A stretch of 64,000 nucleotides of DNA from Cyanobium usitatum str. Tous (GTDB lineage: Bacteria > Cyanobacteriota > Cyanobacteriia > PCC-6307 > Cyanobiaceae): assembly GCF_003011885.1 (NCBI RefSeq), contig NZ_PXXO01000003.1, positions 124,001-188,000 on the forward strand. Direction: 5' to 3'. This document shows, piece after piece, positions 1,166-46,579 of the stretch. A program made the translations under genes and the position numbers. Positions within the stretch are counted from its first letter, which is position 1, and each line of letters begins with the position of its first letter. Below the pieces are notes generated by a model, which had not been told where the DNA came from, made no database searches, and saw only the letters and a program-made list of their open reading frames with translations.

Positions 1166-1582
1166 TCAGCTGCTCAGATAACGCTCGACGGTGCTGCTGG
1201 TCCAGGTCGCAACGCCGGTGCCAAAGAAGTCCTGGTCCTCCGTCCAGATTGCGCACTCCAGCTGCAGCCCCAGAGCCAATGCAGGCCAGTCATCAGCGTC
1301 ACGGATCCTGGCCAGCGCCTCCTCGCGAGCCGACTCCAGCACAATGTCCTCAACCATCTGAACCACTTGCATCAAGCTGAGCAGTGCCTCGGTGCACACA
1401 GCCTCATCGAGGTTCTTTTCCCTGGCGAGATCGGCGATGTAGTGGGCCGCCTCAGCGACATTGGCCTCTGCGACAAAAAAGTCCACCCGATCGGCGTAGT
1501 CAGCGATCAGGGTTCTCACCCGAACGCCAAGGCAGCCACGGATCAGGATGTTCGCGTCGATGACCAGGCGTTTGCGCTCCAC
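1166..1582 (-). CDS. VapC-like PIN-domain toxin
   Basis: This is a PIN-fold ribonuclease of about 138 residues, the toxin half of a type II toxin-antitoxin pair that typically cleaves tRNA or rRNA. Residues 7-11 give the family signature VIDAN, with the first catalytic Asp at 9. A conserved Glu follows near 40 (VAEANVAEA), and a C-terminal acidic cluster (RDADDW, then WTEDQDFF) completes the metal site. The GTG start chosen begins 2 bases after the antitoxin stop, the usual spacing. An ATG ten codons upstream would overlap the antitoxin by 28 bases and is less likely. It sits inside a phage structural operon as a cargo gene, where it could stabilise the prophage. Confidence 0.85.
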   Translation of the reverse strand: MERKRLVIDANILIRGCLGVRVRTLIADYADRVDFFVAEANVAEAAHYIADLAREKNLDEAVCTEALLSLMQVVQMVEDIVLESAREEALARIRDADDWPALALGLQLECAIWTEDQDFFGTGVATWTSSTVERYLSS

Positions 1583-1584
1583 CG

Positions 1585-1845
1585 TCAGGGCTGATGGCGT
1601 CGCTGCCGCCAAGCTTTGAAGTCCGCACTGAGTTCCTCTTCCGAGAGCCCAAGACGCTCGAGTTCGGCCTGCATGAGACGGCCGGCCTCCAGGAGGCGTT
1701 GGCGCTCGTCCTGTTCAGCTTCCTGGGGGAGGGGCACATAAAGGCCAATGGTGCGGCCGTGGCGCGTCACCTCAATGGGCGTCACCGACTCGAGGTGAGA
1801 GGCCAGCTTGGCCCTGAGTTCACGAATGCCAACACGGACGGCCAC
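1585..1845 (-). CDS. VapB/Phd-type antitoxin
   Basis: This 86-residue protein begins MAVRVGIREL and has the Phd/YefM-type N-terminal pattern (IRELRAKLASHLESV, then TRHGRTIGLYVPL), a DNA-binding fold that autorepresses the operon. The charged C-terminal helix (LEAGRLMQAELERLG) would cover the toxin active site. The GTG start at 1845 is chosen because the homologous part begins there. The frame stays open to 2016, but that upstream stretch is a decayed copy of a neighbouring phage gene and is probably not translated. It is followed immediately by the PIN toxin gene. Confidence 0.82.
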   Translation of the reverse strand: MAVRVGIRELRAKLASHLESVTPIEVTRHGRTIGLYVPLPQEAEQDERQRLLEAGRLMQAELERLGLSEEELSADFKAWRQRRHQP

Positions 1846-1929
1846 GGCAGCAACCCCGTAGATGTGTACACACCCTAGGTCTGATGTGGTCGAACCGGCT
1901 TGCGCAGCCGGAACAACCACCAGCCATGG

Positions 1930-1980
1930 GCTCGCGCCGAACTCCAGCACCCTGAGCCGGGTGTGCGGGTCCAGGGGGTC
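1930..1980 (-). pseudogene. Fragment duplicated from the adjacent phage structural gene
   Basis: Read on the minus strand, this stretch encodes DP-x5-T-x3-VLEFGAS. The same spacing and residues occur at residues 150-166 of the neighbouring 194-residue phage protein (2122-2172). About 10 of 17 positions are identical and the DNA is visibly similar. No intact gene surrounds the copy. It looks like a decayed partial duplication lying between the 38-bp repeat and vapB. Confidence 0.55.
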
Positions 1981-1989
1981 CAAGCGATC

Positions 1990-2027
1990 GGCAGCCCATC
2001 GCGGCGCTGCCATCACCTGTTGCCGAG
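1990..2027. repeat. 38-bp direct repeat, copy 2
   Basis: This is a perfect match to 1121-1158. It begins 7 bases beyond the stop codon of the 194-residue phage gene. See the first copy for its internal hairpin. The placement suggests that an original single intergenic sequence was duplicated when the VapBC segment entered. Confidence 0.9.
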
Positions 2028-2034
2028 CGGCGGA

Positions 2035-2619
2035 TCAGACGACTCGATTCGGCTTAAGGGTTCCAAATATCCGCTCGCCGATCAGCGGCTGCACCAGGGT
2101 GCCGATGCCGCCGGACCCGTAGCTGGCGCCGAACTCAAGCACCACAAACGCGGTGTACTGCGCGTAGGGGTCCACAGCGGCATCACCTGCGGGGGTGAGC
2201 AGCGAGAGATCCCCAAGCCAGATCGCGCCCTCGCAGGGGGCCACCACAGTGGTGCCGCTGGAGGACACCCGCCGCCCGTGGTGCTGCCAAACCAAGTCGC
2301 TGCTTAGCCAGATCGACCCTGGGTTAGGCGGCAGGCGGGCGGCGCGACAGAGATAACCGATGTAGGTGAAGTCACCGGTATCCACACCGGGGCCGTTCTC
2401 CTTGGCAGAGATGTAGTTGGACCGCTCCAGGAAGCACTCGAGCACGTGGCTGGCCACTACGGCAGAGGTGGTGTCACCGGGATTGGCGTTTTCGCCCAGC
2501 AGCAGACGGGCATTGGCGAACGCCTGCAGGGGTGTGGGGCCCCCCAGCAAGGTAAGTGCGCCGCCTCCGTTGCCCTGGTGCTGGCCGCTCGTGAAACGGC
2601 GCGGACTGATCAGTGCCAT
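2035..2619 (-). CDS. Phage structural protein of unknown function
   Basis: This 194-residue protein has no recognised family. It begins MALISPRRFT, is rich in Gly, Ala and small residues, and has no membrane segment or coiled coil. Its position (portal, then a 175-residue protein, then this, then scaffold-like, all on one strand) suggests a head or head-tail connector component. Residues 150-166 (DP to LEFGAS) are repeated in degenerate form at 1930-1980. It begins only 3 bases downstream of the preceding gene's stop, so the genes are probably cotranscribed and coupled. Confidence 0.6.
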   Translation of the reverse strand: MALISPRRFTSGQHQGNGGGALTLLGGPTPLQAFANARLLLGENANPGDTTSAVVASHVLECFLERSNYISAKENGPGVDTGDFTYIGYLCRAARLPPNPGSIWLSSDLVWQHHGRRVSSSGTTVVAPCEGAIWLGDLSLLTPAGDAAVDPYAQYTAFVVLEFGASYGSGGIGTLVQPLIGERIFGTLKPNRVV

Positions 2620-2622
2620 TGT

Positions 2623-3150
2623 TCAGCCCCGCAGCAGGGCCGTTGTGCCCAGCATCCCGGTGGCCGCAGCGGTGAACTGAACCCAGCTGGCCAGCCCCGG
2701 CAGTAGGAGCATCAGCTGCTCGCCGTAGCGCCGCCGCTGGCTAAGCAGGGCCACCGAGCTGGAGCGGGGATTGGCGTAGACGGTTTCGCTCTCCTGGCGC
2801 AGCAAGGCGGTGTCGTAAGCAATCACATCCGCCTTTTGCAGCGGCGCATCCCCGGCGGCCGCCACCGAGCCGGCAATCGGTCCGGAATGGGACTGCCTCT
2901 CGATCGACTGCTCCTGCTCAGGGCCAGCCCCCAGCAGCTGCTGATCAATCAGCGCTACCGCGTCCAGCAGGGCCCGAGCACTCAGCACCCCGGCGACGTG
3001 GTGGCGCTCCAAAACCGTCATCGCCCGGCCGATGGCATCGAGGCAGGGCACTGTCGCTGGCAGGGCCAGGGCCTGGCGAATCGCTTCTTGATCGCCGGGT
3101 TGCCAGGTCGCACCGATTGGTGCGCTGGGCAAGTTGATGCTGGTGGTCAT
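2623..3150 (-). CDS. Phage protein of unknown function following portal
   Basis: This 175-residue protein begins MTTSINLPSA. The start at 3150 was chosen because its ATG overlaps the portal stop codon in an ATGA arrangement typical of phage operons. An in-frame start 13 codons upstream would lie well inside the portal gene. The sequence is mostly helical with an LLLPGLASWV hydrophobic stretch near the C-terminus, not clearly transmembrane. Its place next to the portal suggests a head-assembly role, but no motif identifies it. Confidence 0.6.
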   Translation of the reverse strand: MTTSINLPSAPIGATWQPGDQEAIRQALALPATVPCLDAIGRAMTVLERHHVAGVLSARALLDAVALIDQQLLGAGPEQEQSIERQSHSGPIAGSVAAAGDAPLQKADVIAYDTALLRQESETVYANPRSSSVALLSQRRRYGEQLMLLLPGLASWVQFTAAATGMLGTTALLRG

Positions 3151-4535
3151 GCAGAAACCGGTGTCACACCGGCCAGATCCCCTAGCCATTGCCGCAGGGC
3201 GGCGTCGGTGACGATGCCCCGTTCATGCAGCTGCAGCATCTCCGTCACCGTCGGCTGGGGTTTGGGTGCCGGTGCCAGCGGACTGATCTCCACCAGCAAG
3301 GCCGGGCCATCCCGCTGGGTTACGGACTCGCCGGTGAGAGTGCACCAGTGCTCCAGCAGCGTGGAGAACATCGAGGCCTTCTGGATCGCCTGGCTCTGCA
3401 GCAGCGCATAGGCCTGGGACGCCGCCATCGAGATCTCCCTCGCCGTGCGCGGTGCCCCTTGGGCGCCAGATGGGATCAGGGCATCGCGGCGCATGGCCTG
3501 ATCCAGCGACTCCAGCCAGGCGCGGTGTTCGGCAAGCGAGCGGGCCTGGATCTCCACGAACTGGAAGCTGGCGCCTTCCGGCAGATCGATGACGCTGTTG
3601 GGGCCCAGTACTACCGGCTCGCTGCTGCCATGACCCATGGGGCCGACAACCCCCGTCCGCACTCCAACTGGCAGGGCTGTTCGATACAGCAGCTCCTGGT
3701 AGTCGCTCTGGCAGCGGAAATGGTTGAGGTACTGATGCGCCAGGCCGAGATGCGGCAGGTCGCCTTCCCCAAAAGCGGCGCCATCACTGGCGTACCAGAT
3801 CAAGGGCAGCTGGCTGATGCCGCGGTAGTGGTTCAGCTCGGTGCGATGGGGCCGCCAACCCGACGGGGTCTGTGGATCAGCTACCAGCTCCATGGTTTCC
3901 AGGCTCATGCCGTCGCTATCGAGGCCAACGGATCCGTAGAGCCACCGATGCTGGGGCCGATCCGTCTCCAGGGACTCGTCCTGGGCTTTTGGGTTCGGCA
4001 TCCGGAAGCTGACCGTGTCTGGCAAGGACTGGGGGCCGGGTAGGTGCCAGTTCAGGACGTCACGGCGCTCCAGAAGAGCAAGACGCGGCAGGGAGAGGCG
4101 ATCGCCATGGCGCAGCGCCTGCTGCCGATCGCCCTCACTGGGCCAAAGGTGCTGGGGCGGCAGCACCACCACCAGTGCTGCTCCATCGCGGAGCACCAGT
4201 ACGTCGGCTCGCTCGAGGAAGACGCCCAGGTCGGTACCGCGTCCATCCACGTCACTGATCACCGCCTGAAGCGTGGCCGGCAACTCGCGCCAATGGCTGG
4301 AGGCCAGCATTCCCGCAAAGGTCCGTAGGGCATCGCGGAAGAACCCCGACGGCAGAGCAGCCTCCACCCGGCGCCGGTAGGCGGATAAAGGCTCGCGCTC
4401 GCCACGGGGCAAGTAGTGCTCCTTGCGGTCAGCGAGGAGGTCCCAGCAGTCCTGGATCAGCTCCAGGCGAGGGAACAGCGCCGCCAGGGTGGGGTTGAGC
4501 GGCCATAGGAGTGGATCCGGGGTCAACGGGGACAA
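3147..4535 (-). CDS. Phage portal protein (DUF4055-like)
   Basis: This protein of 462 residues is the usual size of a siphophage portal, the dodecameric ring at one capsid vertex through which DNA enters and leaves. The N-terminus (residues 28-60, with YLPRGEREPLSAYRRRV) matches my recollection of DUF4055-type portals, which open with a statement of helical segments around a DYLAG/YLP-type loop. A central beta-rich part precedes a helical C-terminus (about 330-400, SLDQAMRRDALIPSG). It lies downstream of the terminase genes but is separated from them by a sigma-like gene and two oppositely oriented cargo genes, an unusual interruption of the terminase-portal pair. Confidence 0.7.
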   Translation of the reverse strand: MSPLTPDPLLWPLNPTLAALFPRLELIQDCWDLLADRKEHYLPRGEREPLSAYRRRVEAALPSGFFRDALRTFAGMLASSHWRELPATLQAVISDVDGRGTDLGVFLERADVLVLRDGAALVVVLPPQHLWPSEGDRQQALRHGDRLSLPRLALLERRDVLNWHLPGPQSLPDTVSFRMPNPKAQDESLETDRPQHRWLYGSVGLDSDGMSLETMELVADPQTPSGWRPHRTELNHYRGISQLPLIWYASDGAAFGEGDLPHLGLAHQYLNHFRCQSDYQELLYRTALPVGVRTGVVGPMGHGSSEPVVLGPNSVIDLPEGASFQFVEIQARSLAEHRAWLESLDQAMRRDALIPSGAQGAPRTAREISMAASQAYALLQSQAIQKASMFSTLLEHWCTLTGESVTQRDGPALLVEISPLAPAPKPQPTVTEMLQLHERGIVTDAALRQWLGDLAGVTPVSA

Positions 4536-4822
4536 GCCCGATCAGCGGCTGCTAGCTATTGCCGGTGACACACCCCGCGCAAAGCCACAGCTCCGAGCCG
4601 ACATTGAGGTGCGTACAGGCCAGGAACTTGGGACTGGGTGGTTTTCAGACTCGTGAACCGCGCTTACAGTCAATCAATACTTGTTTTACGCTATAGCAAT
4701 TACAGCCAGCTCAGACCCGCTCAGGTGATGCTCTGTAAATGATTATCGAAAAGTATTTTGCCTGCTTGGGCTGTTTTCGTGACCGTCTCTGATCAATTTA
4801 GTCCTTGAAAAAAACGAAAATC
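4536..4822. other. AT-rich divergent intergenic region
   Basis: No gene is visible between the portal gene (leftward) and the FRG gene (rightward). Base composition drops sharply from about 4,650 onward and stays AT-rich through the FRG gene, marking the left edge of an inserted segment. It must hold the promoter of the FRG gene. I do not see a confident -35/-10 pair. Confidence 0.5.
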
Positions 4823-5578
4823 ATGACTAAAGGGAATAGGCCGCGATGGACTCCGACAGGGGTCAAAGATGGAATAGAGGAAGTCCATATTCGGAAGTGG
4901 AATTATTTTATCGACTATGTGCAGCTTCACTTTCCGCCCGGCTCTAGCTGGGTATTTCGCGGTCACAGGAAAGATGTGTACAAGCTCGAATCCACGATAG
5001 ATAGGCAAGTAAAGGATAAGGCTCGCACAAAAGAGATAAGAAGCGCTCAGCTAGAGCGCTTTAAGCTCGCAATTCGAGGGAAACGCGGCGCAAACCCGCC
5101 AACATATACAGACGATAAGGAGTGGTGGTCAATTGGGCAGCATTTTGAATTGTTGACGCCGCTTCTTGATTGGAGTAACTCTCCATACACGGCAGCATAT
5201 TTTTCATTCTTTAAAACCGGATCTGATGACACCAAGAAACGAGTTGTCGTTGCGCTCAGCAAAGAGAGGGTGCTGGCGAGTGGGCTTCAAAGCGAAATAG
5301 AGTTTTTTGTTCCGTCGTCAGACGAGAATGCAAGAGTGATAAGCCAAAATGGTCTCTTCACATATTCCGAAAGCGGCAAGGCAATAGAAGAGCTTGTGAG
5401 AAGCAAATACTCAGGCTCGACTGAGCCGATTGTCAGAAAGATTATCCTTCCAAGCGAAGAGAGGGAAAGCGTCCTGGCAGGCTTGGAGTTGATGAATATC
5501 AACCACTTGACGTTATTTCCTGATTTGCATGGTGCCTCTATTTACAGCAACACCAAGTTGTATACCGAGGCTAAATAG
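4823..5578 (+). CDS. FRG-domain protein (prophage cargo)
   Basis: This protein of about 251 residues carries an FRG domain, named for its Phe-Arg-Gly motif. WVFRGHR is near residue 40, followed by YKLESTIDR, and later WWSIGQHFELLTPLLDWS gives the second conserved block (a His, then TPLLDW). FRG proteins recur in prophages, mobile islands and defence loci, but their biochemical activity is not settled. The ATG at 4823 is used; a TTG six codons upstream is possible. The gene is strongly AT-rich compared with all surrounding phage genes and is transcribed against the structural operon, so it looks like a recently acquired cargo gene. A role in superinfection exclusion is inference. Confidence 0.82.
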   Translation: MTKGNRPRWTPTGVKDGIEEVHIRKWNYFIDYVQLHFPPGSSWVFRGHRKDVYKLESTIDRQVKDKARTKEIRSAQLERFKLAIRGKRGANPPTYTDDKEWWSIGQHFELLTPLLDWSNSPYTAAYFSFFKTGSDDTKKRVVVALSKERVLASGLQSEIEFFVPSSDENARVISQNGLFTYSESGKAIEELVRSKYSGSTEPIVRKIILPSEERESVLAGLELMNINHLTLFPDLHGASIYSNTKLYTEAK

Positions 5579-5775
5579 CGGTATATTCGAAAGTTCGAGT
5601 GCATTTCGTTTGTGGCACTCCTTGCGCGCGAACTGATTACGCGCGACCTTAAGAAGTGGACTTCCCAACTTTTTGCTTGACCTCCATCTTGCCCAGGTAG
5701 AGGTGGTCATCATTTAAACCTTCTGTTGTCCAGCCTGGCAGAGAAGAGCTGCTCAGTCTTGCCGCTCAGTTCTAC

Positions 5776-6225
5776 ATGTTCACAATGCAGAACCAGGCCT
5801 TTCTCCATGCCCACTTGGCGGATGCAGAGGCCGTCATGGAAGATTGCAAGAAGATCATCGCCGAGTGCGCGTATCCGGAAGTGCTGCACGAGCGCACTCT
5901 GCAAGTCGCCAAAGCCAAAAAGGCCGTTGCTGATTTCTGCAAAGCGGTTGCTGATCCAGACTTCCATGCCGAATTGATAGTCTTCTTTCTGGAGCAGGGC
6001 AATGCCTTCACGGTGGGCTATGGCGACATCGATGCGGGCTCCTACAGCGCCTTGCTGGCCATGGCCCGCTGTGCTGTCAAAGCGATCTGCGGCTTGCCCC
6101 TCCAGTTGAAGGAGCCCTTCAGGGAACGGCTGGCAGTGGTTGTGCGCTCATCGTCAGAAATCGGCTGGGGGTATCACGATGAACTGACGGACAGCTACAG
6201 CGCTGTCTTTGTGAATCAGCAGTGA
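5776..6225 (+). CDS. DUF6155-like protein, possibly 5'-truncated
   Basis: This 149-residue protein is largely helical. The pattern around residues 66-95 (AELIVFFLEQGNAFT, then YGDIDAGSYSALL) resembles what I remember of the DUF6155 family, a small protein of unknown function. The open frame continues upstream of the only ATG to a stop at 5698, and those codons (including PGREELLSLAAQFY) look like the expected N-terminal helix. The original start may therefore have been lost and the protein shortened. It follows the FRG gene on the same strand after about 200 bases and is nearer the phage average in composition. Confidence 0.55.
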   Translation: MFTMQNQAFLHAHLADAEAVMEDCKKIIAECAYPEVLHERTLQVAKAKKAVADFCKAVADPDFHAELIVFFLEQGNAFTVGYGDIDAGSYSALLAMARCAVKAICGLPLQLKEPFRERLAVVVRSSSEIGWGYHDELTDSYSAVFVNQQ

Positions 6226-6246
6226 GGCGCCCTTTTGCGGAGCTGC

Positions 6247-6777
6247 TCACTCCAGCTCTGGATCTGCCTCACGCACCGCCATCGCCACCACCCGCACAGC
6301 GCAGGCCGCTGAGATCTCAACCCAACGCTCCAGGCTGACCCCGAGCAATGATGGGATCTGATCCGCCGGCGTTCCTTCCCTCAATAACTTCTGCCCTCGC
6401 GCATGCAGCTCCCGCCAGCGGCCCGGTACCGAGATCAAAAAGCCCTTGTCGCGCAGGTAGTGGGTGATCTCACCGTTCACGAAGGGCCGGGCGTAGGCGA
6501 TGAAGTGGTTGGGACTGCGGCCCGGGCGGTGGATGTCGTAGCGGCGTGAGGCCTTGATCAGCCCGATTGCCGCCAACTGCTCCAGATCTTCCTTGGGATG
6601 ACCAGTGCGGCGGGCGTAGTTGGCCGCCACCTTCGCTGCAAAGGGCAGGTGCTCCACCACCAAGGCATCAGCAACGGCATGGGGTGAGCGCAATGGCCCG
6701 CGAGCACGACCTGATGTCGTCACGCGAGCGGTGGCCTGCTGGGGCCTGGGGCGGTGGGCGTGTGGTGGGGTGTTCAT
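6247..6777 (-). CDS. Phage-encoded sigma-70-like factor lacking region 4
   Basis: This 176-residue protein contains a recognisable sigma-70 region 2: VVEHLPFAAKVAANYA near residue 41, EDLEQLAAIGLIKA around 65-80 (core polymerase contact), and ISVPGRWRELHARG (about 122-135), which resembles the region 2-3 junction of cyanobacterial group 3 sigma factors. The last 45 residues do not show a clear region 4 helix-turn-helix, so promoter recognition may be incomplete or it may act as an anti- or co-sigma. It lies 20 bases downstream of the large terminase gene and is probably expressed with it, suggesting control of late structural genes. Confidence 0.72.
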   Translation of the reverse strand: MNTPPHAHRPRPQQATARVTTSGRARGPLRSPHAVADALVVEHLPFAAKVAANYARRTGHPKEDLEQLAAIGLIKASRRYDIHRPGRSPNHFIAYARPFVNGEITHYLRDKGFLISVPGRWRELHARGQKLLREGTPADQIPSLLGVSLERWVEISAACAVRVVAMAVREADPELE

Positions 6778-6797: not shown

Positions 6798-8432
6798 TCA
6801 GCGGGAAAACAACAATGGCCGGGGCGTGGCCTTGCCCTGGCTGCGCCAGTGCTGGCTCTGCAGCCAGATCACGCCCTGGCCGAAGGCATCCACCAGGTCG
6901 TCATGGGCTCCGTTGGGAAAACCCAGCAACTCGCTGATCAGGGCGTCGTTGCCGCTGCGAAAAGCCAGCTGGCCGGCCTCCATCAGCGGGGCCACGGCAT
7001 GGGCGCGGCTCACCTTGCTACCGCTGGGTCGCACGGCAATCAGCCCAGGGATCTGTCGCTGCAGCAGCTGGCAGACGGCCGGGCCATTGGCGGCGTCCTC
7101 GATCAGCACCGCATCAGGGCTGAGGGCCTTGCCCAACGACGCCAGGGTCTGGCCGAGGAAGTTCATCACTCCCGGCAGGTCGAGGCGGTGGTGCTGGCTC
7201 CAGATCACCTCGATCCGGTGGACACCTTCCTGCTGTTCGACTGGTGAGCGCACCCGGGCGGCACTGGGGTGGAGCTGTTCACCCCTTGCCCTGGCCTGGG
7301 CAGCCGGGTGGCGGGCCTCCTGATCCGGCAGCAGGCCGAGGAGGCAGAAGCCGCAGTAGTCGTTCGCCTCTCCCCCCTTGAAGCTCAGGTCGCAACTGAG
7401 CACCACCGCCGCAAAGGGTCTTTGCGCCGCCCGGCCGTCTGGGGCAGGGGTGCCCGCTGTGGTGCGGATCCAGGCGCGTTGGAACAGCAGGCCCTCCGCT
7501 GGTGAGGGGCGCTGCTGGTACAGCGCGTTCCACCAATAGCTGCCGGCGCGGATGCGGATCTGCTCCAGCTCCGCCAGCGGGAAACGCTCTGGGCAGAGCG
7601 GCTCAGCGGGCTGGCGCCAGTCCGGCTCGATGGTGCAGGTGGCCGGGAACAGGATCTGCTGCTGGGGCGGTTCAGCAATGGCAGGCAGATTCAGCACCTG
7701 CCAGCGCTGCGGGGCGTCGCCGCTTTCCTGCTCCAGCAGCCAGCCGATCAGATCGTCCTGGTGCCAGCGGGTCAGCACCACCACCTGGGCCGCGCCTGCA
7801 AAACCCCATCGAGAGGGCCCCTGTGGGGCCGGTTCAGCGCGGGTGAGCCAGACGGACTGGAACCACTCGATCAGCTTCTGGCGTTGCCCGGCGGAATTGG
7901 CGTCTTCTGGACCCTTGTAGGGGTCATCAATGATCCCGAGCGCGTAACCCTTGCCGGTGAACGGCCCGCGCACGCCGGCAGCAATGCAGCCACCGCGCTC
8001 GGGCGTCAGCCAGTTACCCACGGCAGTGGAGTCCTTTGAGAGGGGGTGGCCGACCGCGCGGTAGTAGTGCCGTGCTTCACGGCTATGGGCATAGGCCAAT
8101 TCGGCTGAGTAGGAGGCAATCGCGCAAAAGCGCGTGGGATAGCGGCTCACCCAGTAGGCAGGGAACAGCTTCGACACCAGCAGCGACTTACCCAGCCGCG
8201 GGGGGCAGCAGACGATCAGGCGGTTGAGCTCCCCATCAGCCACGCGCTGCAGCAGGGCAATCAGTCGTTCGGCCCAGGTGTGAAAGGCGTAGCCGGGATA
8301 GGCGGCCACGATGAAATCCCGAAAGATCTGCTGAAGCTGCGGTGTGTTCTGCTGGCGGCAGGGATCTGGGACATCCAGCAGGCCCCAGTCGTCCCAGAGG
8401 TCGCCGGCAGGATCGAGAATCAGGCCGGCCAT
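6798..8432 (-). CDS. terL: Terminase large subunit
   Basis: This is the packaging ATPase-nuclease of 544 residues. The Walker A variant CPPRLGKS is at 76-83, the Walker B region GIIDDP is near 166-171, and the coupling motif VVVLTRWH is at about 217-224. A C-terminal RNase H-like nuclease domain starts with the metal-binding Asp in CDLSFKG (near 348), continues with LIEDAANG and ends with HDDLVDAF. The start at 8432 (MAGLILDPAG) is chosen because it overlaps the small-subunit stop by one base (TGATG). The frame stays open upstream, but that part is only the antisense-like shift of the small subunit gene. Confidence 0.95.
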   Translation of the reverse strand: MAGLILDPAGDLWDDWGLLDVPDPCRQQNTPQLQQIFRDFIVAAYPGYAFHTWAERLIALLQRVADGELNRLIVCCPPRLGKSLLVSKLFPAYWVSRYPTRFCAIASYSAELAYAHSREARHYYRAVGHPLSKDSTAVGNWLTPERGGCIAAGVRGPFTGKGYALGIIDDPYKGPEDANSAGQRQKLIEWFQSVWLTRAEPAPQGPSRWGFAGAAQVVVLTRWHQDDLIGWLLEQESGDAPQRWQVLNLPAIAEPPQQQILFPATCTIEPDWRQPAEPLCPERFPLAELEQIRIRAGSYWWNALYQQRPSPAEGLLFQRAWIRTTAGTPAPDGRAAQRPFAAVVLSCDLSFKGGEANDYCGFCLLGLLPDQEARHPAAQARARGEQLHPSAARVRSPVEQQEGVHRIEVIWSQHHRLDLPGVMNFLGQTLASLGKALSPDAVLIEDAANGPAVCQLLQRQIPGLIAVRPSGSKVSRAHAVAPLMEAGQLAFRSGNDALISELLGFPNGAHDDLVDAFGQGVIWLQSQHWRSQGKATPRPLLFSR

Positions 8433-8968
8433 CAGCTTCTGGCCCCGCCCCCATGGGGCTCTGCCGGTTTGATCGGCGCCCGCAGCAGCCCTCCGATCTC
8501 GGCGATCACCCGGAAAGCGCCCACCGCCGCAGAAAACTGATCGGCATCCATGGCGCGGCGGGCACAGTCGTTGAGGGCAAAGATCTGCTCGGCCTGGTGA
8601 CGGCGTCGGTCGGAGATCAGCTCCTCCACCATTCGGGCGCGAGCCAGATCGAGGTAGCGATTGACGGTCTTGACGTTGCTCACCCCCCAGCTCTGGCCCG
8701 CTTTCGCCCTGATTTCCACCAGAGGCAGGCGTTGGGCGATCCAGAGCTGGGCTTCTGCGATGCGCCGTTCCACCTCTCCGGCAGTGGCCCTCGGGGTCTG
8801 GGCGTGATGGGGTAATCGCCGTGGCGGGTTGGTCTGGCTGATTGGCCGGCTTGGGTCCACCGCCACCGGCTCCCACACCGCCTCGCCATCGGGGTCTTGC
8901 TCAGCCGGTGCAGAGCGCAGCTCTTCCACCGGATCAGCGGCGCTGCTTGGGCGGGAGTGCTGCGGCAT
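8432..8968 (-). CDS. terS: Putative terminase small subunit
   Basis: This 178-residue protein lies immediately upstream of the large terminase gene with a one-base overlap. Residues around 75-110 form a helix-turn-helix-like region (RLPLVEIRAKAG, then SWGVSNVKTVNRYLDLAR), suitable for recognising the packaging site. The C-terminal half is helical and probably oligomerises. The N-terminal 60 residues are Pro/Ser-rich and likely disordered. The start MPQHSRPSS at 8968 was chosen because it falls 4 bases after the upstream stop; a start 25 codons earlier would overlap that gene. Assignment rests on position and the HTH-like segment. Confidence 0.72.
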   Translation of the reverse strand: MPQHSRPSSAADPVEELRSAPAEQDPDGEAVWEPVAVDPSRPISQTNPPRRLPHHAQTPRATAGEVERRIAEAQLWIAQRLPLVEIRAKAGQSWGVSNVKTVNRYLDLARARMVEELISDRRRHQAEQIFALNDCARRAMDADQFSAAVGAFRVIAEIGGLLRAPIKPAEPHGGGARS

Positions 8969-17758: not shown

Positions 17759-18048
17759 TGGCTGTTCCTCACCCGATCAGCAATAGCGGCGCTGGGCGCC
17801 GCCCCCAGCTTCCGGCGTTCTGCCGCACCCGCCGGCCCACAACAGTGGCCGTCACGGTCAACAGTCTCACCGCAATGCGCCTGTTGGTGCTGGTGGGGCT
17901 GCTGTTTCAGCTGAGCACCCTGCTGCTGGTGATCGCTGGCCCCGTGCCGTCGCGGCTGGAAGCCGTCAGCACCAACAGCCCTTTCCCCCCTGTCGCCGGC
18001 GTCGCCGCCAGTGGGGCCCAGCCCATTTCACCGACCTCAGACCGATGA
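17758..18048 (+). CDS. Small membrane protein in phage early operon
   Basis: This 96-residue protein has one clear transmembrane helix at about residues 41-61 (LLVLVGLLFQLSTLLLVIAG) and a Pro/Ser-rich tail. It overlaps the upstream stop by one base (TGATG) and the KilA-N gene by ATGA, which supports translation. The function is unknown. Location in an early operon rules against a conventional holin but not against a superinfection-related membrane protein. Confidence 0.5.
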   Translation: MAVPHPISNSGAGRRPQLPAFCRTRRPTTVAVTVNSLTAMRLLVLVGLLFQLSTLLLVIAGPVPSRLEAVSTNSPFPPVAGVAASGAQPISPTSDR

Positions 18049-18851
18049 ACACCACAACGACGTCGTCCACTCTCACCACGCCTGTTGTCTCGATGAGTCA
18101 GCACGCTCTGGACTCCCGTTCCTGGAACGGCACCCCGATCTCTCGGCGCACCAGCGATGGCTACGTGAATGCCACGGCCATGTGCAAAGCCAATGGCAAA
18201 CGATGGAAGGACTATCGCGAGTCCGACCGGTGCCAGCACTATCTGGATGCTCTGGAAAGCGTGGCCGGAATTTCCGTCCACGCCCTCGTTGAGTCCCGCT
18301 CAGGCGGTGCCGGGGGCGGCGGCACTTGGGTCCATCCCCAGGTCGCCGTCGACCTGGCCCGCTGGATCAGCGCGCCGTTTGCGGTGTGGATGGATGGCTG
18401 GTTCCTGGAAAGCGTCCAGCAGGCTCAACCGACTCCAGTAGAGACACCATCACCTCGGATCAGGCAAGCCGAGGTGATTGCCCTAGTTGAACGGAGCATC
18501 GATCTGTTTGAGCGGCTGGGCGGCTTGGATCAGCGCGACCAGCTCCTGTTCAAGGACATCGTGCGCAGCAACGTACTCACCGCCAGCGCTGGGTTGCTGG
18601 CAGGCACCCCAACTGATGAGGAACTCACCTTGGGAGATGCCTGGCTGGAGGTGTTCCAGCAAGTACTGCCGCGCAGCCAGTTCTGCGCTGCCGGCAAGCT
18701 AGTGGCCAGGGCCTACCGCGAGGAGTTCGGCACAGAACCCCCATGTCGCCAACAGTTTGTTGACGGGGCGCCGCGCCAGGTCAAGAGCTACCGCCGCAGC
18801 TGGTTGGTCGACACGCTCAATCGCTGCCGCACCCAGCTGGCGGGGGGCTGA
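18045..18851 (+). CDS. KilA-N domain phage regulator
   Basis: This 268-residue protein contains a KilA-N DNA-binding domain at about residues 25-125: GYVNATAMCKANGKRWKDY, then TWVHPQVAVDLARWIS and FAVWMDGWF. KilA-N proteins are phage and large-virus DNA-binding proteins, often antirepressors. The C-terminal part (about 150-265) is helical with DAWLEVFQQVLPRSQF and is not recognised; it may sense an inducer or partner. It is translationally coupled to both neighbours. Confidence 0.87.
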   Translation: MNTTTTSSTLTTPVVSMSQHALDSRSWNGTPISRRTSDGYVNATAMCKANGKRWKDYRESDRCQHYLDALESVAGISVHALVESRSGGAGGGGTWVHPQVAVDLARWISAPFAVWMDGWFLESVQQAQPTPVETPSPRIRQAEVIALVERSIDLFERLGGLDQRDQLLFKDIVRSNVLTASAGLLAGTPTDEELTLGDAWLEVFQQVLPRSQFCAAGKLVARAYREEFGTEPPCRQQFVDGAPRQVKSYRRSWLVDTLNRCRTQLAGG

Positions 18852-20075: not shown

Positions 20076-21368
20076 TCACGACGTCCTGTTATTGAGTCGT
20101 TGTGCTGCTTTGCTGAAGGCGTCATCCACCACGTCATCCCCGCACCAGCGGCTGTATGCGGCGAGGTGGGTCTGAACGCTGTGACCCATAGCGGCGGCCA
20201 CCACCTTGGGAGGGAGGTCACAAATCACGTGGGCCCGGTGGGCGTAACTGTGCCGGCAGGAATAGAGCACCAACTTTTCTCCCTGGGTTTCGTACTGCTG
20301 GCGAAGGTGTTGCCAGTGCTCTCGCCGCAGAAGGTAGCGACTAAAGGAATCCGAGCCGAAGCCGGCTCGCATGGGGGGCAGCTTTGCCGGATCAAAGGTC
20401 TCGAGGAGCCGCCATTCCGTGGCCCATTGGTCACAGGGCAGCAGACGCAGGGGTCTGGGCTTGGTTTTGCCTCGAGAGGCAACCTTTTCATAGGTGCACC
20501 AGAGCCGTCCCTGGCGAAGCTGCAGATGCTGTAGCTCTTCGGGTCGCAGTCCAAATGCGCTGAGCAGTTGAAAGGCAAACTGCCAGCGCGGGTCCGGTAT
20601 GGCCTGCACCATCGCCAGGATGTCTGCCACGCTAATCGGCGTGGTGACCGCTCGGCTCTCCCGTGACCGGCCGATGATTGTTGAGAGGTCAGGCTGCGGA
20701 GCCCATTGGGCTGGAAGCAGTTTCTGGCTGACCGCCCAACGCAGCAGAGCAGCGGTGTACTGAATTTGCAGTCTTCTGGTTCGGCAGCCAGGGCGCTGAC
20801 TCCAAAGATCAGCTTGCGCTTCAAGCAGTTGGATTGCATCGCGGGCAGCCGGTGGCCCTTTCGCTGTTTTTAGGAGCAGTGCCATTCGCGGCTTGTAAAG
20901 CCGTTCCCAAGTCGTTTCCTTGATTTCGCCGCTGCGCAGCTTGTGCTGCTGGTAGCGGCGGATCAAGCCGGCCCAGTCAATCGGGACCGATCGGCTAGTT
21001 GTCGTGGGAGGTGAAACACTCGGCTGCACGTTTGAGGGCTCGCTTGCCAGGACTTCTGCCTGGCGCCTGGCCTCAGCCTCAGCCTTCGCTGTACTCAGCT
21101 CGGCGATGGCCAGCTCGAGAGGGGCTCCGTTCTGAAAGGCCTCGTAGACCGTCAACACGCCGTCGCGGATGGCTTCGAGTTGGTCTGACTCCCAGGGGTA
21201 GGGCAGGAGCAGCTGCTTGCGATGCCCATCACCTGCGCGAGCCGTGATGTGAAGCCGGGCCCTCCCCCTGAAGTTCGAGACCGTCCAGCCGCTTCGGCAG
21301 CCCCTCTGGCCGAGGGCCCGCAGCACGCCGCCGCGGAGCAGAACATCCCATTGCGGGACCGCTGGCAT
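20076..21368 (-). CDS. int: Tyrosine-family phage integrase
   Basis: This 430-residue site-specific recombinase has an N-terminal arm-binding part, a SAM-like core-binding domain at about 120-220 (starting IDWAGLIRRYQQHKLR) and a C-terminal catalytic domain. Catalytic residues are visible: Arg in FGLRPEEL, Arg-His in SCRHSYAHR, His in AMGHSVQTHL and the nucleophile Tyr in AAYSRW. The usual first His of box II appears to be Tyr (LYSCRH). The gene lies next to the 3' end of tRNA-Arg, its likely attachment site. Its start codon overlaps a TGTGAGAAGG repeat array that may bind integrase or a repressor. Confidence 0.93.
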   Translation of the reverse strand: MPAVPQWDVLLRGGVLRALGQRGCRSGWTVSNFRGRARLHITARAGDGHRKQLLLPYPWESDQLEAIRDGVLTVYEAFQNGAPLELAIAELSTAKAEAEARRQAEVLASEPSNVQPSVSPPTTTSRSVPIDWAGLIRRYQQHKLRSGEIKETTWERLYKPRMALLLKTAKGPPAARDAIQLLEAQADLWSQRPGCRTRRLQIQYTAALLRWAVSQKLLPAQWAPQPDLSTIIGRSRESRAVTTPISVADILAMVQAIPDPRWQFAFQLLSAFGLRPEELQHLQLRQGRLWCTYEKVASRGKTKPRPLRLLPCDQWATEWRLLETFDPAKLPPMRAGFGSDSFSRYLLRREHWQHLRQQYETQGEKLVLYSCRHSYAHRAHVICDLPPKVVAAAMGHSVQTHLAAYSRWCGDDVVDDAFSKAAQRLNNRTS

Positions 21369-21468: not shown

Positions 21469-21496
21469 GGCTGAGAAAGCAGACCCTGATTGAAAC

Positions 21497-21569
21497 GCCC
21501 CCTGTGTGATTCGAACACACGACCGGCTGCTTAGAAGGCAGCTGCTCTATCCGGCTGAGCTAAGGGAGC
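21497..21569 (-). tRNA. tRNA-Arg (anticodon TCT)
   Basis: The 73-base gene on the minus strand folds as a cloverleaf. The acceptor GCTCCCT pairs with AGGGGGC (one G-T), the D arm has AGCTCAGCCGGATAGAGC, the anticodon loop has CTTCTAA giving TCT, and the T arm is GTGTGTTCGAATCACAC. No CCA is encoded. The prophage lies at its 3' end, so the last bases of the gene are the probable attB core. Confidence 0.95.
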
Positions 21570-21652
21570 AGCCGTTGCCATGATCGCTCAGCAGGTGGGG
21601 GCCACACAACTGCTGCCCTGGCGTCAAAGTGGTTGTAGAGATCTTTTTTGAA

Positions 21653-35475: not shown

Positions 35476-35610
35476 CCCAGCCTCGCCCCTGTCACCAGTG
35501 CCACCGTTGAGCGGATCTGTCCCAGGTCGATGGCCGGCGCGGGCACCGATCAGGTCGGGGTTGTAGTGCAGGAGGCGCTGATGGAGCGCGATAAACCCTT
35601 CCCATAAAGA
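35476..35610 (-). pseudogene. Possible SDR dehydrogenase fragment
   Basis: Between serS and the pilin operon (35285-35725) there is no intact gene. On the minus strand IDLGQIRSTVALVTGARLGG resembles the start of a Rossmann fold in short-chain dehydrogenases (VALVTGA), preceded in another frame by ALHQRLLHYNPDLIG. The match is short and frames are broken, so this is a tentative call. Confidence 0.3.
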
Positions 35611-35725
35611 TAGAAAAACATGAACCCTTGGCGAGCCCCCATCTTACGTAGCTTGATGGTGATGTTAGAACCATTGAAAATCTTAAGGGCTGCATCATCA
35701 TCAAGGTTGAACAATGGTCCGGCTT

Positions 35726-36325
35726 TTAGGTTCCAACTCTAAAATTCTTCGTGCCATAAGCGAGTGCAAATGTTCGAGAGGGCCTGCCCAAGAAGCCTGG
35801 AATGGTGAGGTTGAAATTGATACTGACGCGGGACGAACTTATTTCTACATTGGTGACACTTACGCCAGTGGCGACTTGTTGAGATAGTGAAGCGGCCTGA
35901 AAGTTTAGAGATCCATTGCGGAGGATTGGGGGCCCAATTCTTGAGAGATTTCCGCCTGACTGGGCATAAGTAATGCACGCATACTGGAGAAGACCCGAGC
36001 TCAGAAATGGGGATCTGATTGAAAAAACCTTGTCCGTAACCGCGGGGCATCTGACGTCGCTTGACGCCAGAATTTCTTCTCCATCTGATATGTCGCTCTC
36101 GATTAAAAACGAGAGTCTACTGCGCAAGTTTTCGCTTGATTGGGCAGCAAGAAGGGACCGCTCGCTGTTGACCTGAGAAGTAAATATTTGAGAGGCTAGT
36201 AGAATTATAATTGGAATTAGTGATGCTGCAACCAGCAACTCAGCCAAGGTAAGCCCCTCTGAATTTGTATTTCTCTTGAACTGGCCTAGGGAAAATTTAA
36301 TGAGGTGTTTAGAAGGAGCTAGGTT
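35726..36325 (-). CDS. Minor type IV prepilin (PilW-like)
   Basis: This 199-residue prepilin's leader ends in Gly, followed by LTLAELLVAASLIPIIILL, with the conserved Glu at mature position 5 and a hydrophobic helix. The rest is a Ser/Asn-rich globular head with Cys at several places (VRCPAV, QYACITY). The start MNLAPSKHL at 36325 lies 8 bases after the previous stop; an ATG 11 codons upstream is possible. It is the last of four minus-strand genes with AT-rich codon use. Minor pilins prime pilus assembly and can bind DNA. Confidence 0.82.
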   Translation of the reverse strand, partial: NLAPSKHLIKFSLGQFKRNTNSEGLTLAELLVAASLIPIIILLASQIFTSQVNSERSLLAAQSSENLRSRLSFLIESDISDGEEILASSDVRCPAVTDKVFSIRSPFLSSGLLQYACITYAQSGGNLSRIGPPILRNGSLNFQAASLSQQVATGVSVTNVEISSSRVSINFNLTIPGFLGRPSRTFALAYGTKNFRVGT

Positions 36326-36333
36326 CATTGGTC

Positions 36334-36903
36334 TTAGATGCGGGTGTAGTCTGAGCACTCGTCGGTCAAGGTTGAGCCGGAACCTCTGCTACCAATTTCT
36401 ATAACGCCAACCAATCCGCTGATGCGAATGCATCTGAGGAGTGAAGACCTGCTAATTAAGAATCTAATTTCGGTGATCGGACTCTCGGCGTCGGAGGATA
36501 TTGTGCCCCTTGGCGTAAAGATAATGGATTGAGCAGTGAAGGAAGCCGACAGGCTTGAGCTTCCAAGATTCGGTATGTCGAGTAAAATACTTGAGTTGGG
36601 AGCACAGGCGGCAGGAGAAACACTTGCAATCTGCGTGCCATTGCCTTGATTGGTGAATGCACTGGTAAAGTTTACTGTGCAGCCACCCTGGTTTGCTTGA
36701 AGAGACTTTTGAAGGAGCGCTGATCTCTGTACAAGTTGTAGCCACCCGGCTAATGCAATTTGGGCTGCATTAACTTTTGCTCGATCCGCCTCGCTAGCTG
36801 AAACATTCACCGCAATAGTGGACAGGATTCCTAGTATTACTACAGTAATTAGGATCTCTGCTAGAGAGAAACCAGAACCGGATGAGTTGCGCTTGATGAT
36901 CAT
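36334..36903 (-). CDS. Minor type IV prepilin (GspH/FimT-like)
   Basis: This 189-residue prepilin has a short leader (MIIKRNSSGSG) cleaved before FSLAEILITVVILGILSTIA, with Glu5 of the mature protein (FSLAE). The head domain has Cys residues (QGGCTVNF, AACAPN, LRCIR, DECSDY) that may form disulfides. The start at 36903 overlaps the upstream stop as ATGA; an alternative is three codons earlier. It belongs to the AT-rich minor pilin operon. Confidence 0.85.
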   Translation of the reverse strand: MIIKRNSSGSGFSLAEILITVVILGILSTIAVNVSASEADRAKVNAAQIALAGWLQLVQRSALLQKSLQANQGGCTVNFTSAFTNQGNGTQIASVSPAACAPNSSILLDIPNLGSSSLSASFTAQSIIFTPRGTISSDAESPITEIRFLISRSSLLRCIRISGLVGVIEIGSRGSGSTLTDECSDYTRI

Positions 36904-37502
36904 GGACACCACGCAGCCAAGGTTGGCACAAGCGTGTAAGAACGAGAGGCAGTGGCTCCACTGTATACAACAGTAAGGCGATGACTTGCGGCTTGAGAGG
37001 TATTAAATGTACGCGAAATTCCAGAGGGGAGGCTCGCATTCCCGATCAGTGAAACTAACTCTTCCACCAGTCTCCCGTTGTTGCATTTGGTTGTAAATGC
37101 AGTGATAGCAGTCTCACCTGTGTCGAGAGTAGAGCTTGGGAAATAATAGTTTTGCTTTCCTGGAATATAATATGTGTTGCTCGAGGGGTCAATGGAGCAT
37201 GGTGATGTTCTGCCAGAATCGGTAGTGCAAGAGCCAGAACAGCATGTCATCCTAAACGCAACGTCTTTGATTCTTGCGAGGTCTTGATCAACTGCTTCTT
37301 CAAGCTGATTAGTGCTTCTCGTTCCAATCAGGGCCGTATTCCCTCCAGTCAGAATTGTTGCAACTCCGGCACCCAAGACTCCAAGGATGACGATAGAGAC
37401 GAGGACTTCGACGAGAGAAAATCCCCTTGATTCAAGAAACTGATAATCTGGCTTGGAGAACTCTGAATCTTTAAAATAGGCATGATTGGGCAGAGAAAGC
37501 AT
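36900..37502 (-). CDS. Minor type IV prepilin (PilV-like)
   Basis: This 200-residue prepilin has a leader of 27 residues ending RG, then FSLVEVLVSIVILGVLGAGV with Glu5. The head is rich in Thr, Ser and Cys (MTCCSGSCTTDSGRTSPCS), indicating two or more disulfides. It begins 6 bases after the large PilX-like gene. The length and position match PilV-type components of a minor pilin complex. Confidence 0.85.
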   Translation of the reverse strand: MLSLPNHAYFKDSEFSKPDYQFLESRGFSLVEVLVSIVILGVLGAGVATILTGGNTALIGTRSTNQLEEAVDQDLARIKDVAFRMTCCSGSCTTDSGRTSPCSIDPSSNTYYIPGKQNYYFPSSTLDTGETAITAFTTKCNNGRLVEELVSLIGNASLPSGISRTFNTSQAASHRLTVVYSGATASRSYTLVPTLAAWCP

Positions 37503-37508
37503 AAGCCC

Positions 37509-39215
37509 CTAAAAGAAACGAGTAAAGTTAATGGACCTTGCGGCCCAGTCTATTGGCTTGGAAGATGGATTTAAATTGCCTGTATCTTCAAGGACGCTAC
37601 AAGGAACTGCGGATGACCCGGGCACGCATGTACCAGGATTTGAAGGTGTGGCTAATTTGAGTGTGCTATTTCCGCCAAGTGTAAGTTCATTGGTCCATAG
37701 GATTCCGCTAAAGTCTGTCGTGCCATTCATAGTTGTGTTTGCGCATGGCGCCCAGACAAACATGGCCGAGCCGGAGTTGCCTCCGAGGCTAAATGCTTGG
37801 GAGGATGTGCATGCACTATTGCTGGGCACTGGGATACCCCTGATTTGGAGCCTATTCGTGAGCGAGATGGGGGCTATTGATGCGTTGTTTAGGTGAATTA
37901 TGCTTCCTGCATTATTTCCATTTCCGCGTAGAGTGATGTTTTGATTGTTCTGTTGGAGATAAAGATATACAGGGCTATCTGTCGTGTCTATAGTTAGAAT
38001 GCGACTGCTGCCATTGAGGTCGATTGATGTGACGATGCAGTGGTAGGCCTCGTCGGATCCTGGAGGGTACGATCCGCGATGACAATTGGTGGTATTCGCA
38101 GCATTGCTATTAATCGTTGTTGCGGAGGTAATATTTAATCCAGCGCCGTTTAGAATGGTGCAAGGGGAGGTGGCTCCGCAAAAGCTAGCCCGTGCATCCG
38201 AAATGGAGGGAGGGTTAGGGAGTGATATCGGTTTAATCTCATAGTCAATAGGCCCTTGCGACGTACGGAGATCATTAGTGCGGGCGTCGCACGTTGTACT
38301 GGTACTTGTTGATGGGCGAACGCAGGTAATTGAATTCAGCTTTGTTCCGGTCTGGTCTGTAATCAATAATGCACCAGTTCCTCCGCCAAGTAGCCCTCTT
38401 CCGCCTCCTATGCCTGTGACGATAGGCAGATCCCCAATCGGAAGATCGCTTTGCCCTGGGCATGAACGAAAATCATTGCCAAGATCGGGAGTGTTGATAA
38501 TAACTCCTCCAAAAGATCTATTGCAGCACTTTGGCTCAACAATGAATTCTCTGGTGATCCTGCTTGTGGCAACTGGACTTTGGCTAGCCCCATAAACCCT
38601 GCCTTCAACAACTAATTCTAAAAATCCGCGTGCATTTGTCTCCGAAATGGCCGGGGAGGTGCCGGTTGAAGCCACAGGATTGCCCGTAACGGTAAACGGA
38701 GTTCCTCTGCCGGCAGTCGAGCCTGGCGTGAAAGTTGCGCTAATGAGTACGAATCGTCTTGAAAATGAACCCCCTCCTGGGAGGGTCACTTCGTTCCCAT
38801 TGGCGAAACTAGTAGCAGCCTCCGTGGGATATGGTGCGCTGGCAATGTCAAAGTCCGGTGAAGGAGCGGTGCAGCGATTTCTTGCTGTTGGCCAGCTTCC
38901 CATGGACAAGCCTGTGTATAAGCGTCTGTTTACTGGCCGATTCCATTCGCTAATAATGAATGCAGTTCCGGCCTCGGCTGTTAATCGTGCATCTTTCGCG
39001 CGGCCTTGGAAAACAGAGCCTAGGAGGCCATCAAAGGAACGTTGCGCAACAATTGCTGTGCCTGCGATAACTGCCAGTGCCACAACAAGGGCGATTGCAA
39101 CAGTGGCTCCTTCCTCGCTATTGGCTCGATGGCTGAAACAGAGATTGTAAAATAAGCTAATTGCGTATTTATGCTTACTTTTTTTTGGTGGGGGTAGTAA
39201 GAATCTTGGCATCAC
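37509..39215 (-). CDS. Large PilX-like pilus-associated protein
   Basis: This 568-residue protein is the first gene of the AT-rich operon. It has one hydrophobic segment near residues 36-58 (GATVAIALVVALAVIAGTA) preceded by basic residues, without a canonical prepilin Gly-Phe and Glu5 site, which is the arrangement of PilX-type proteins. The long extracellular part is Ser/Thr/Asn/Gly-rich with many Cys and a repetitive beta-helix-like character near 400-520 (LQQNNQNITLRGNGNNAGSI). It may form the tip of the pilus or bind a surface. A second Met codon starts one residue later. Confidence 0.72.
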   Translation of the reverse strand: MMPRFLLPPPKKSKHKYAISLFYNLCFSHRANSEEGATVAIALVVALAVIAGTAIVAQRSFDGLLGSVFQGRAKDARLTAEAGTAFIISEWNRPVNRRLYTGLSMGSWPTARNRCTAPSPDFDIASAPYPTEAATSFANGNEVTLPGGGSFSRRFVLISATFTPGSTAGRGTPFTVTGNPVASTGTSPAISETNARGFLELVVEGRVYGASQSPVATSRITREFIVEPKCCNRSFGGVIINTPDLGNDFRSCPGQSDLPIGDLPIVTGIGGGRGLLGGGTGALLITDQTGTKLNSITCVRPSTSTSTTCDARTNDLRTSQGPIDYEIKPISLPNPPSISDARASFCGATSPCTILNGAGLNITSATTINSNAANTTNCHRGSYPPGSDEAYHCIVTSIDLNGSSRILTIDTTDSPVYLYLQQNNQNITLRGNGNNAGSIIHLNNASIAPISLTNRLQIRGIPVPSNSACTSSQAFSLGGNSGSAMFVWAPCANTTMNGTTDFSGILWTNELTLGGNSTLKLATPSNPGTCVPGSSAVPCSVLEDTGNLNPSSKPIDWAARSINFTRFF

Positions 39216-45864: not shown

Positions 45865-46171
45865 AACTAGACAGACCACGCTGGTGACAACCCAACCCAG
45901 GCCACCACTGGCGATGCCCAAGGGCCAAATGAATAATGTTGCCGCAGGGGCCTGCTGGGTCCTGAAGCTGGCTGCGCAAGCCCCCCCCCTTGCTCGTAGA
46001 AGTAAGCGGTTTTGAGGCACCGTATCTAATAAAAAATCTCTTTCATGGTGCTTGCCCGCGGAAGAGATTAAAAGTAATCGGTTTTTAGATCTTGATCAGC
46101 GGGGATGCATCAATTTGAATTATTAGTTAGATGGATGGGAAAGGCAAAGCCCTGACCGAATTGAGGTAGCT

Positions 46172-46579
46172 CTATGGTGCTGCTGGAGTAGTTAAGGATA
46201 CCTGGCCAGTAGTTGCAATCGTAGCTATGGCATTCGTGGTCAAATTTGTATCAGCGGTAGTAAATGTTGCCGCAGTTCCGGATGGTTCGCAGGTCCCAGT
46301 TACGCCAGGTGGTGATACGTAAGACGCATGCTCAGCATTGACTTGAAGTGCTGCGCAAGCGCGAGCTGCGCCCATGCTGGATGACTCTGAAGCTCTGGCT
46401 CGCGCTTTGTCCTGTTGGTTCAGAAATGCAGGAATGGCGATGGCCGACAGGATGCCAATGATGATTACAACGATCAGCAGTTCCACCAGCGTGAAGCCCG
46501 CTTGCAGGGGATTCTTCGAGCGTTGGCGCTTGGCGAGGGCCGAAATCAGCAGGTGGTTGGAGCTCAGGCGAGAGGCCAT
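46172..46579 (-). CDS. pilA: Major type IV pilin
   Basis: This 135-residue prepilin has a leader of 28 residues ending in QAG, then FTLVELLIVVIIIGILSAIA with Glu5, and PAFLNQQDKARARASESS, the classic spine of a major pilin. The small head of about 70 residues has two Cys (RACAAL, GTCEPS) enclosing a disulfide loop. The start MASRLSSNHL at 46579 was chosen because the longer open frame lacks pilin character. It is divergent from a sensor kinase gene with a 145-base spacer that should hold both promoters. Confidence 0.93.
   Translation of the reverse strand: MASRLSSNHLLISALAKRQRSKNPLQAGFTLVELLIVVIIIGILSAIAIPAFLNQQDKARARASESSSMGAARACAALQVNAEHASYVSPPGVTGTCEPSGTAATFTTADTNLTTNAIATIATTGQVSLTTPAAP

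Follow-up and report, generated by a model that had tools for sequence, protein, structure and literature searches.

The interval between the sigma factor gene and the portal gene is a cargo hotspot of a prophage family represented in the genome of Cyanobium usitatum str. Tous, where it holds a gene for a stand-alone protein with an FRG domain. This protein, referred to below as FRG, retains the invariant residues of its family and shares the slot with known defense genes of related prophages. The most likely reading, to which we assign a probability of about 0.6, is that the locus represents one occupant of this hotspot and that FRG is a stand-alone antiphage effector of the ADP-ribosyltransferase (ART) superfamily.

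The prophage and its sigma-portal hotspot

The window is the whole 64,000-nucleotide stretch that was analyzed (G000:C19:124001-188000), part of a 2.5-Mb genome. The prophage fills its left part and is also present in IMG/VR as a 39.8-kb viral contig. A putative tyrosine-type integrase is encoded next to the tRNA-Arg gene that serves as the attachment site (Table 1). No 14-base repeat that could be the left attachment site is found within 30 kb; a diverged second copy of the 3' half of tRNA-Arg is located further out, at G000:C19:59684-59737. The two tRNA-Arg copies are about 86 kb apart (G000:C19:59684-145495), double the size of one prophage, so that more than one element may sit here in tandem. 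The early region of the prophage encodes a KilA-N domain (positions 18045-18851; Pfam E value of 2e-19).

On the minus strand, the late genes follow the order terL, the gene for a sigma-70 region 2 protein, the insert, portal, two small genes, a Phd/PIN pair, and the scaffold gene. As pointed out in a preliminary description of this DNA, the terminase-to-portal order is broken by two genes on the opposite strand, and the flanking sigma and portal genes place these plus-strand open reading frames (ORFs) inside the prophage late region. The cargo is also AT-rich, as claimed there: the G+C content is 0.467 in the FRG gene, 0.459 in the stretch 4671-5689, and 0.558 in the DUF6155 stretch, versus 0.652 in the sigma gene, 0.663 in the portal gene, and 0.642 in the prophage part of the window. 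Outside this part, low-G+C stretches (about 0.46 to 0.54) are found at positions 35500-39000 and 46000-46500.

Table 1. Features of the prophage locus (positions in the window) and cargo of the same slot in related loci
Feature	Position or locus	Strand	Basis or remark
Portal protein gene (DUF4055/PHROG portal)	3147-4535	-	Left hotspot border; Pfam, PHROG
Hotspot, portal-sigma interval	4521-6275		Swapped whole in L056 and L027
Conserved element CGGCAATAGC, consensus YGGCAANAGC	4555-4564	-	Upstream of portal gene
Exchanged FRG cassette	4671-5689		blastn: unmatched in L029 and L060, both flanks matching
FRG-domain gene, 251 aa, stand-alone	4823-5578	+	ATG start; alternative TTG at 4805
DUF6155 gene, probably truncated	5690-6225	+	In-frame TAG at 5698-5700; residual ORF 5776-6225, 149 aa
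Sigma-70 region 2 protein gene	6247-6777	-	Right hotspot border
Terminase large subunit gene terL	6798-8876	-	ORF coordinates; true start probably further in
Putative tyrosine-type integrase gene	20076-21368	-	Own sequence and place beside tRNA; no Pfam match at E value of 0.01
tRNA-Arg(tct), attachment site	21495-21570	-	3' half repeated at far end of integrated stretch
SIR2 and LmuA-type protease match	L027		PADLOC; Pfam SIR2_2 with trypsin
Methyltransferase, mad2-like	L029		PADLOC; weak argument
bSEFIR	L057		PADLOC, 4e-40
AriA/OLD-like ATPase	L058		PADLOC AriA, 5e-73
NsnA/PD-T4-2, with GmrSD and HEPN	L060		PADLOC, 2e-58
Shedu SduA	L066		PADLOC, 2e-55
HamB-like helicase	L068		PADLOC, 5e-28
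IetA with subtilase	L072		PADLOC IetA, 2e-73
LmuB with ABC-3C CTD6 protein	L082		PADLOC LmuB, 3e-165
HEC-06 GmrSD	L084		PADLOC, 5e-86
PDC-S13	L088		PADLOC, 2e-92

Related loci were retrieved by portal sequence only, with the cargo disregarded, from nine genomes with a match and then from IMG/VR, using three portal queries. The resulting sample comprises 35 distinct loci, each in a related prophage or viral contig. Across these loci the sigma-portal gap varies from 131 to 5,053 nt and exceeds 500 nt in 34 of them, and the slot of L031 is nearly empty (193 nt). Control junctions are compact, with at most 221 nt between terL and the sigma gene and at most 67 nt between the two genes after portal. 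Pairwise blastn comparisons show sharp breakpoints, with approximately 70 to 89% identity on either side. DUF6155 aside, only 1 of the 124 pairs whose portals are at least 90% identical has any cargo in common, these identities being those of local alignments found using the window's portal. Most hotspot ORFs of at least 120 aa (49 of 56) run counter to the late genes; the median G+C content of the interval is 0.496.

The check for a variable hotspot proposed in the preliminary description thus finds an occupied slot with differing cargo, and many of the alternative occupants belong to known defense families. The outcome named there as a refutation, with the same two genes fixed at this place in all relatives, clearly fails: FRG is found in none of the other loci, and DUF6155 in 5 of the 35. 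Among isolated phages, the best matches to the portal protein come from cyanophages PSS2, S-CBS2, and S-CRES1-3 (29 to 32% identity), which are the nearest isolated phages by this protein, yet distant ones. The inspected regions of PSS2 and S-CBS2 have no annotated sigma-portal cargo slot comparable to the present one.

Two other sites in these prophages are variable. The stretch from the small gene at 2035-2619 to the scaffold gene exceeds 500 nt in 25 of 30 loci, and a third variable site, after portal, is seen in 5 of 35. In the window, the second site contains, among the late genes, a PIN_2 toxin-like gene (positions 1166-2016, minus strand; Pfam E value of 5e-37) with a weak Phd/YefM-like partner. 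The 76-kb IMG/VR contig 3300034063_001922 carries two portals from different clades of the prophage family (L065/L074 and L087), each with a cargo slot of its own.

A PADLOC scan of 25 intervals at a cutoff of 1e-5 yields matches in 12 of them, including the FRG interval of the window (Table 1), and no matching cargo protein in the other 13. Among 10 backbone proteins used as a control, a single borderline match is seen; in this small sample, the cargo is richer in defense genes than the backbone. Further cargo seen with Pfam comprises BrnT/BrnA-like and Gp49/HI1420-type toxin-antitoxin pairs, HEPN, HNH, DUF3800, and YaaC. In L072 (positions 1911-5621), an IetA-type AAA ATPase gene adjoins a subtilase gene, forming an IetAS-like pair within a prophage. 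Cargo proteins of 260 to 605 aa in L070, L071, L085, L087, and L091 show no Pfam match at 0.01 and, where scanned, no PADLOC match at 1e-5, which makes them candidates for unknown systems.

The slot falls at the junction of two modules, after the sigma gene, which would close the packaging module, and before the structural module that portal opens. Foreign genes, mostly on the opposite strand, might be accommodated here with the phage genes left undisturbed. New cargo takes the place of old, probably when the phage genes on either side recombine homologously.

Family, fold, and predicted activity of FRG

The assignment of FRG to its family, made in the preliminary description, is confirmed by Pfam (PF08867; E value of 1.1e-20, 74.7 bits against a cutoff of 25). 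The PADLOC model PDC-S15 aligns nearly over its full length (E value of 5.6e-83; residues 15 to 255 of the 257-aa ORF on profile positions 6 to 251 of 254), although this label designates a candidate phage defense protein only, with no mechanism attached. FRG retains all family-invariant residues, R46, G47, R61, H107, T112, D116, Q175, G177, and F179, and displays the (F/Y)RG motif as F45-R46-G47, the conserved H107, TxLLDW at T112-W117, and QxGxF at Q175-F179. Within the domain it does not differ from the other members of PF08867; however, several of these belong to a restriction operon, whereas FRG of the window stands alone, without such an operon.

The AlphaFold2 model of FRG is confident (pLDDT of 89.1, pTM of 0.86). 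VIA-align comparisons of this model return almost exclusively ARTs, with a middling best Z score of 6.1 and an rmsd of 3.8 over 123 residues. Foldseek searches with the same model give no match to the PDB at an E value below 0.3 and no significant match in the viral library. Sequence searches of the PDB also find no match, indicating that no close relative of FRG has been solved. The structure prediction and sequence search suggested earlier for the 251-residue protein have thus delivered a family match and a confident model and, on the Foldseek side, nothing significant. In the model, R46 falls in strand 43-48, D116 in strand 114-118, and Q175 just before strand 177-181, an arrangement that appears to follow the expected order of ART active-site motifs. 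Published work assigns the Frg clade to the ADP-ribosyltransferase superfamily and proposes an antiviral effector role for it (PMC9503650). The model, whose fold neighbors are nearly all ARTs, is consistent with an ART fold; because the structural matches are weak, it is the published assignment that mainly carries this reading. The preliminary description had presented the locus as the best candidate for an undescribed defense function; being both a PADLOC candidate and a member of a clade with a proposed antiviral role, FRG does not qualify as such.

For FRG as an antiphage effector, we infer an enzymatic activity, a trigger, and a role in phage defense. FRG would be inactive in the lysogen and become activated upon infection by another phage. 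The activated protein might consume NAD+ or ADP-ribosylate an essential target; the cell would then be arrested before it releases phage, which would protect neighboring lysogens. A narrower version, tentative but the strongest of the alternatives, is that FRG ADP-ribosylates one particular macromolecule, be it protein, RNA, or DNA and perhaps belonging to the incoming phage, and neither depletes NAD+ nor makes a signal. KptA/Tpt1 tRNA enzymes, DarT, and guanine-specific DNA enzymes are among the ART fold neighbors listed, and the family-wide conservation of R46, H107, D116, and Q175 suggests a dedicated active site. However, the Aravind group has suggested that Frg may act as an NADase (PMC9503650), and the fold evidence is equally compatible with either activity.

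Relatives of FRG and alternative readings

FRG relatives were found by searching with a three-sequence alignment; single-protein searches of genome contigs and viral contigs recover the same prophage only. Of the class, 390 genomes were sampled, and FRG is matched in 2 of them, one being that of the window. Full-length relatives with 60 to 63% identity are found in Pseudomonas/Stutzerimonas, and others in Bacteroidales, Rhizobium, Novosphingobium, and Pseudoalteromonas. An additional one (L113, positions 4974-5789; 42% identity) is encoded on the opposite strand and with low G+C content beside lysis-like genes; these surroundings look like the lysis region of a different prophage, which would be a second prophage site for FRG. 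This scattered distribution makes acquisition by horizontal transfer likely. In seven relatives (L099 and L101 to L106), FRG is accompanied by type I restriction genes and, where both are present, is placed between S and R; the Rhizobium locus is annotated in this way. On a Shewanella plasmid, an FRG relative adjoins a restriction-type methylase gene.

These neighborhoods bear on the view that FRG is a lysogenic-conversion gene unrelated to phages, with a function in stress, growth arrest, or competition, and that the slot merely tolerates inserts. The closest relatives are chromosomal and adjoin a guanine-deaminase-like gene, a setting that is not an evident defense island, and some cargo in the hotspot lacks a defense match. 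The recurrence of FRG relatives with type I restriction genes, and the presence of PADLOC families at 1e-5 or better in at least 11 other intervals, argue the other way and make this view rather improbable. Still less probable is that FRG is a recently landed passenger, decaying and silent. The stop codon in the neighboring DUF6155 gene and the rarity of FRG in the class would fit such a passenger. A sigma-70 promoter consensus is not found in 4400-6400, which counts against the effector reading as well. Nevertheless, FRG is intact and of full length, with every invariant residue kept and 60 to 63% identity to its proteobacterial copies.

The DUF6155 gene shares the strand of the adjacent FRG gene, and the preliminary description treated the two as a single island, which the comparisons do not bear out. 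Compared with L029 and L060, only the FRG cassette is exchanged, and compared with L056 and L027, the entire interval is. Because the former exchange covers FRG alone, the two genes do not constitute one unit. DUF6155 is a separate resident, found at the hotspot of the window and of L028, L029, L060, and L063, each time with other cargo. The homologues in L029, L060, and L063 are 177 to 180 aa long, and the full-length L029 protein matches DUF6155 with an E value of 9.2e-7. In the window, homology extends upstream of the ATG at 5776 to about the TTG at 5689; since a TAG interrupts this homologous stretch, the 149-aa ORF appears to be a truncated copy and the gene is probably broken. The L028 copy is broken too. 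The structure model of DUF6155 is poor (pLDDT of 64.5), and the literature search, which covered few subscription journals, found no papers on it.

With its four other cargo companions and its interruption here, DUF6155 was rejected as the conserved partner of FRG: the pair lacks both conserved co-occurrence and an intact second member. A two-gene system of FRG and DUF6155, for instance effector and inhibitor, is accordingly very improbable, all the more as the neighborhoods read around FRG relatives showed no DUF6155-like partner.

Comparison with known hotspots and a conserved element near portal

The sigma-portal slot resembles the antiviral hotspots of P2 and P4 in Escherichia coli. In P2, gpA and the portal gene gpQ border the hotspot, in which old-tin, TIR, and SIR2 genes are found (Rousset et al. 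2022, PMC9122126). As in those hotspots, whose cargo includes SIR2, TIR, HEPN, and old-tin genes, fixed phage borders (the same two phage genes in the 35 distinct loci) surround short, differing cargo with very high turnover, and the P2 slot, too, lies directly beside the portal gene. In contrast to P2 and P4, the present slot belongs to another phage family and host group, is bordered by a sigma factor gene and portal, and carries cargo mostly opposite to the late genes. Prophage hotspots have also been described in Vibrionaceae and Bacillus. Cyanobacteria go unmentioned in the paper on the P2 and P4 hotspots (PMC9122126), and a literature search that covered few subscription journals and only work past the preprint stage found no description of the sigma-portal slot.

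Lysogeny has been described as apparently rare in unicellular cyanobacteria (PMC6157547). The slot is a new source of candidate defense genes, which can be collected by a simple rule, reading the sigma-portal interval (34 occupied and 1 nearly empty among 35 loci). The role of FRG, long without an established mechanism, becomes directly testable now that it is among recurrent prophage and restriction-linked cargo. It is conceivable, if somewhat doubtful, that FRG is a mechanistically new ART-type defense, with a trigger and target new among ART systems, and that several unmatched intervals encode undescribed defense systems; the slot would then be a discovery site in temperate phages of picocyanobacteria, the very group in which lysogeny has been called rare.

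Upstream of portal, the element with the consensus YGGCAANAGC occupies the corresponding position in almost every related locus and is kept despite the cargo turnover. In the window, this is its sole copy near the late genes. It was rejected as a general phage promoter, given this single copy and a window count at the level of chance; it is possibly a late promoter, leader, or packaging element. A sequence similar to TGGTTCTCAGACCCGCGAACCA is found near this element and is common to several loci.
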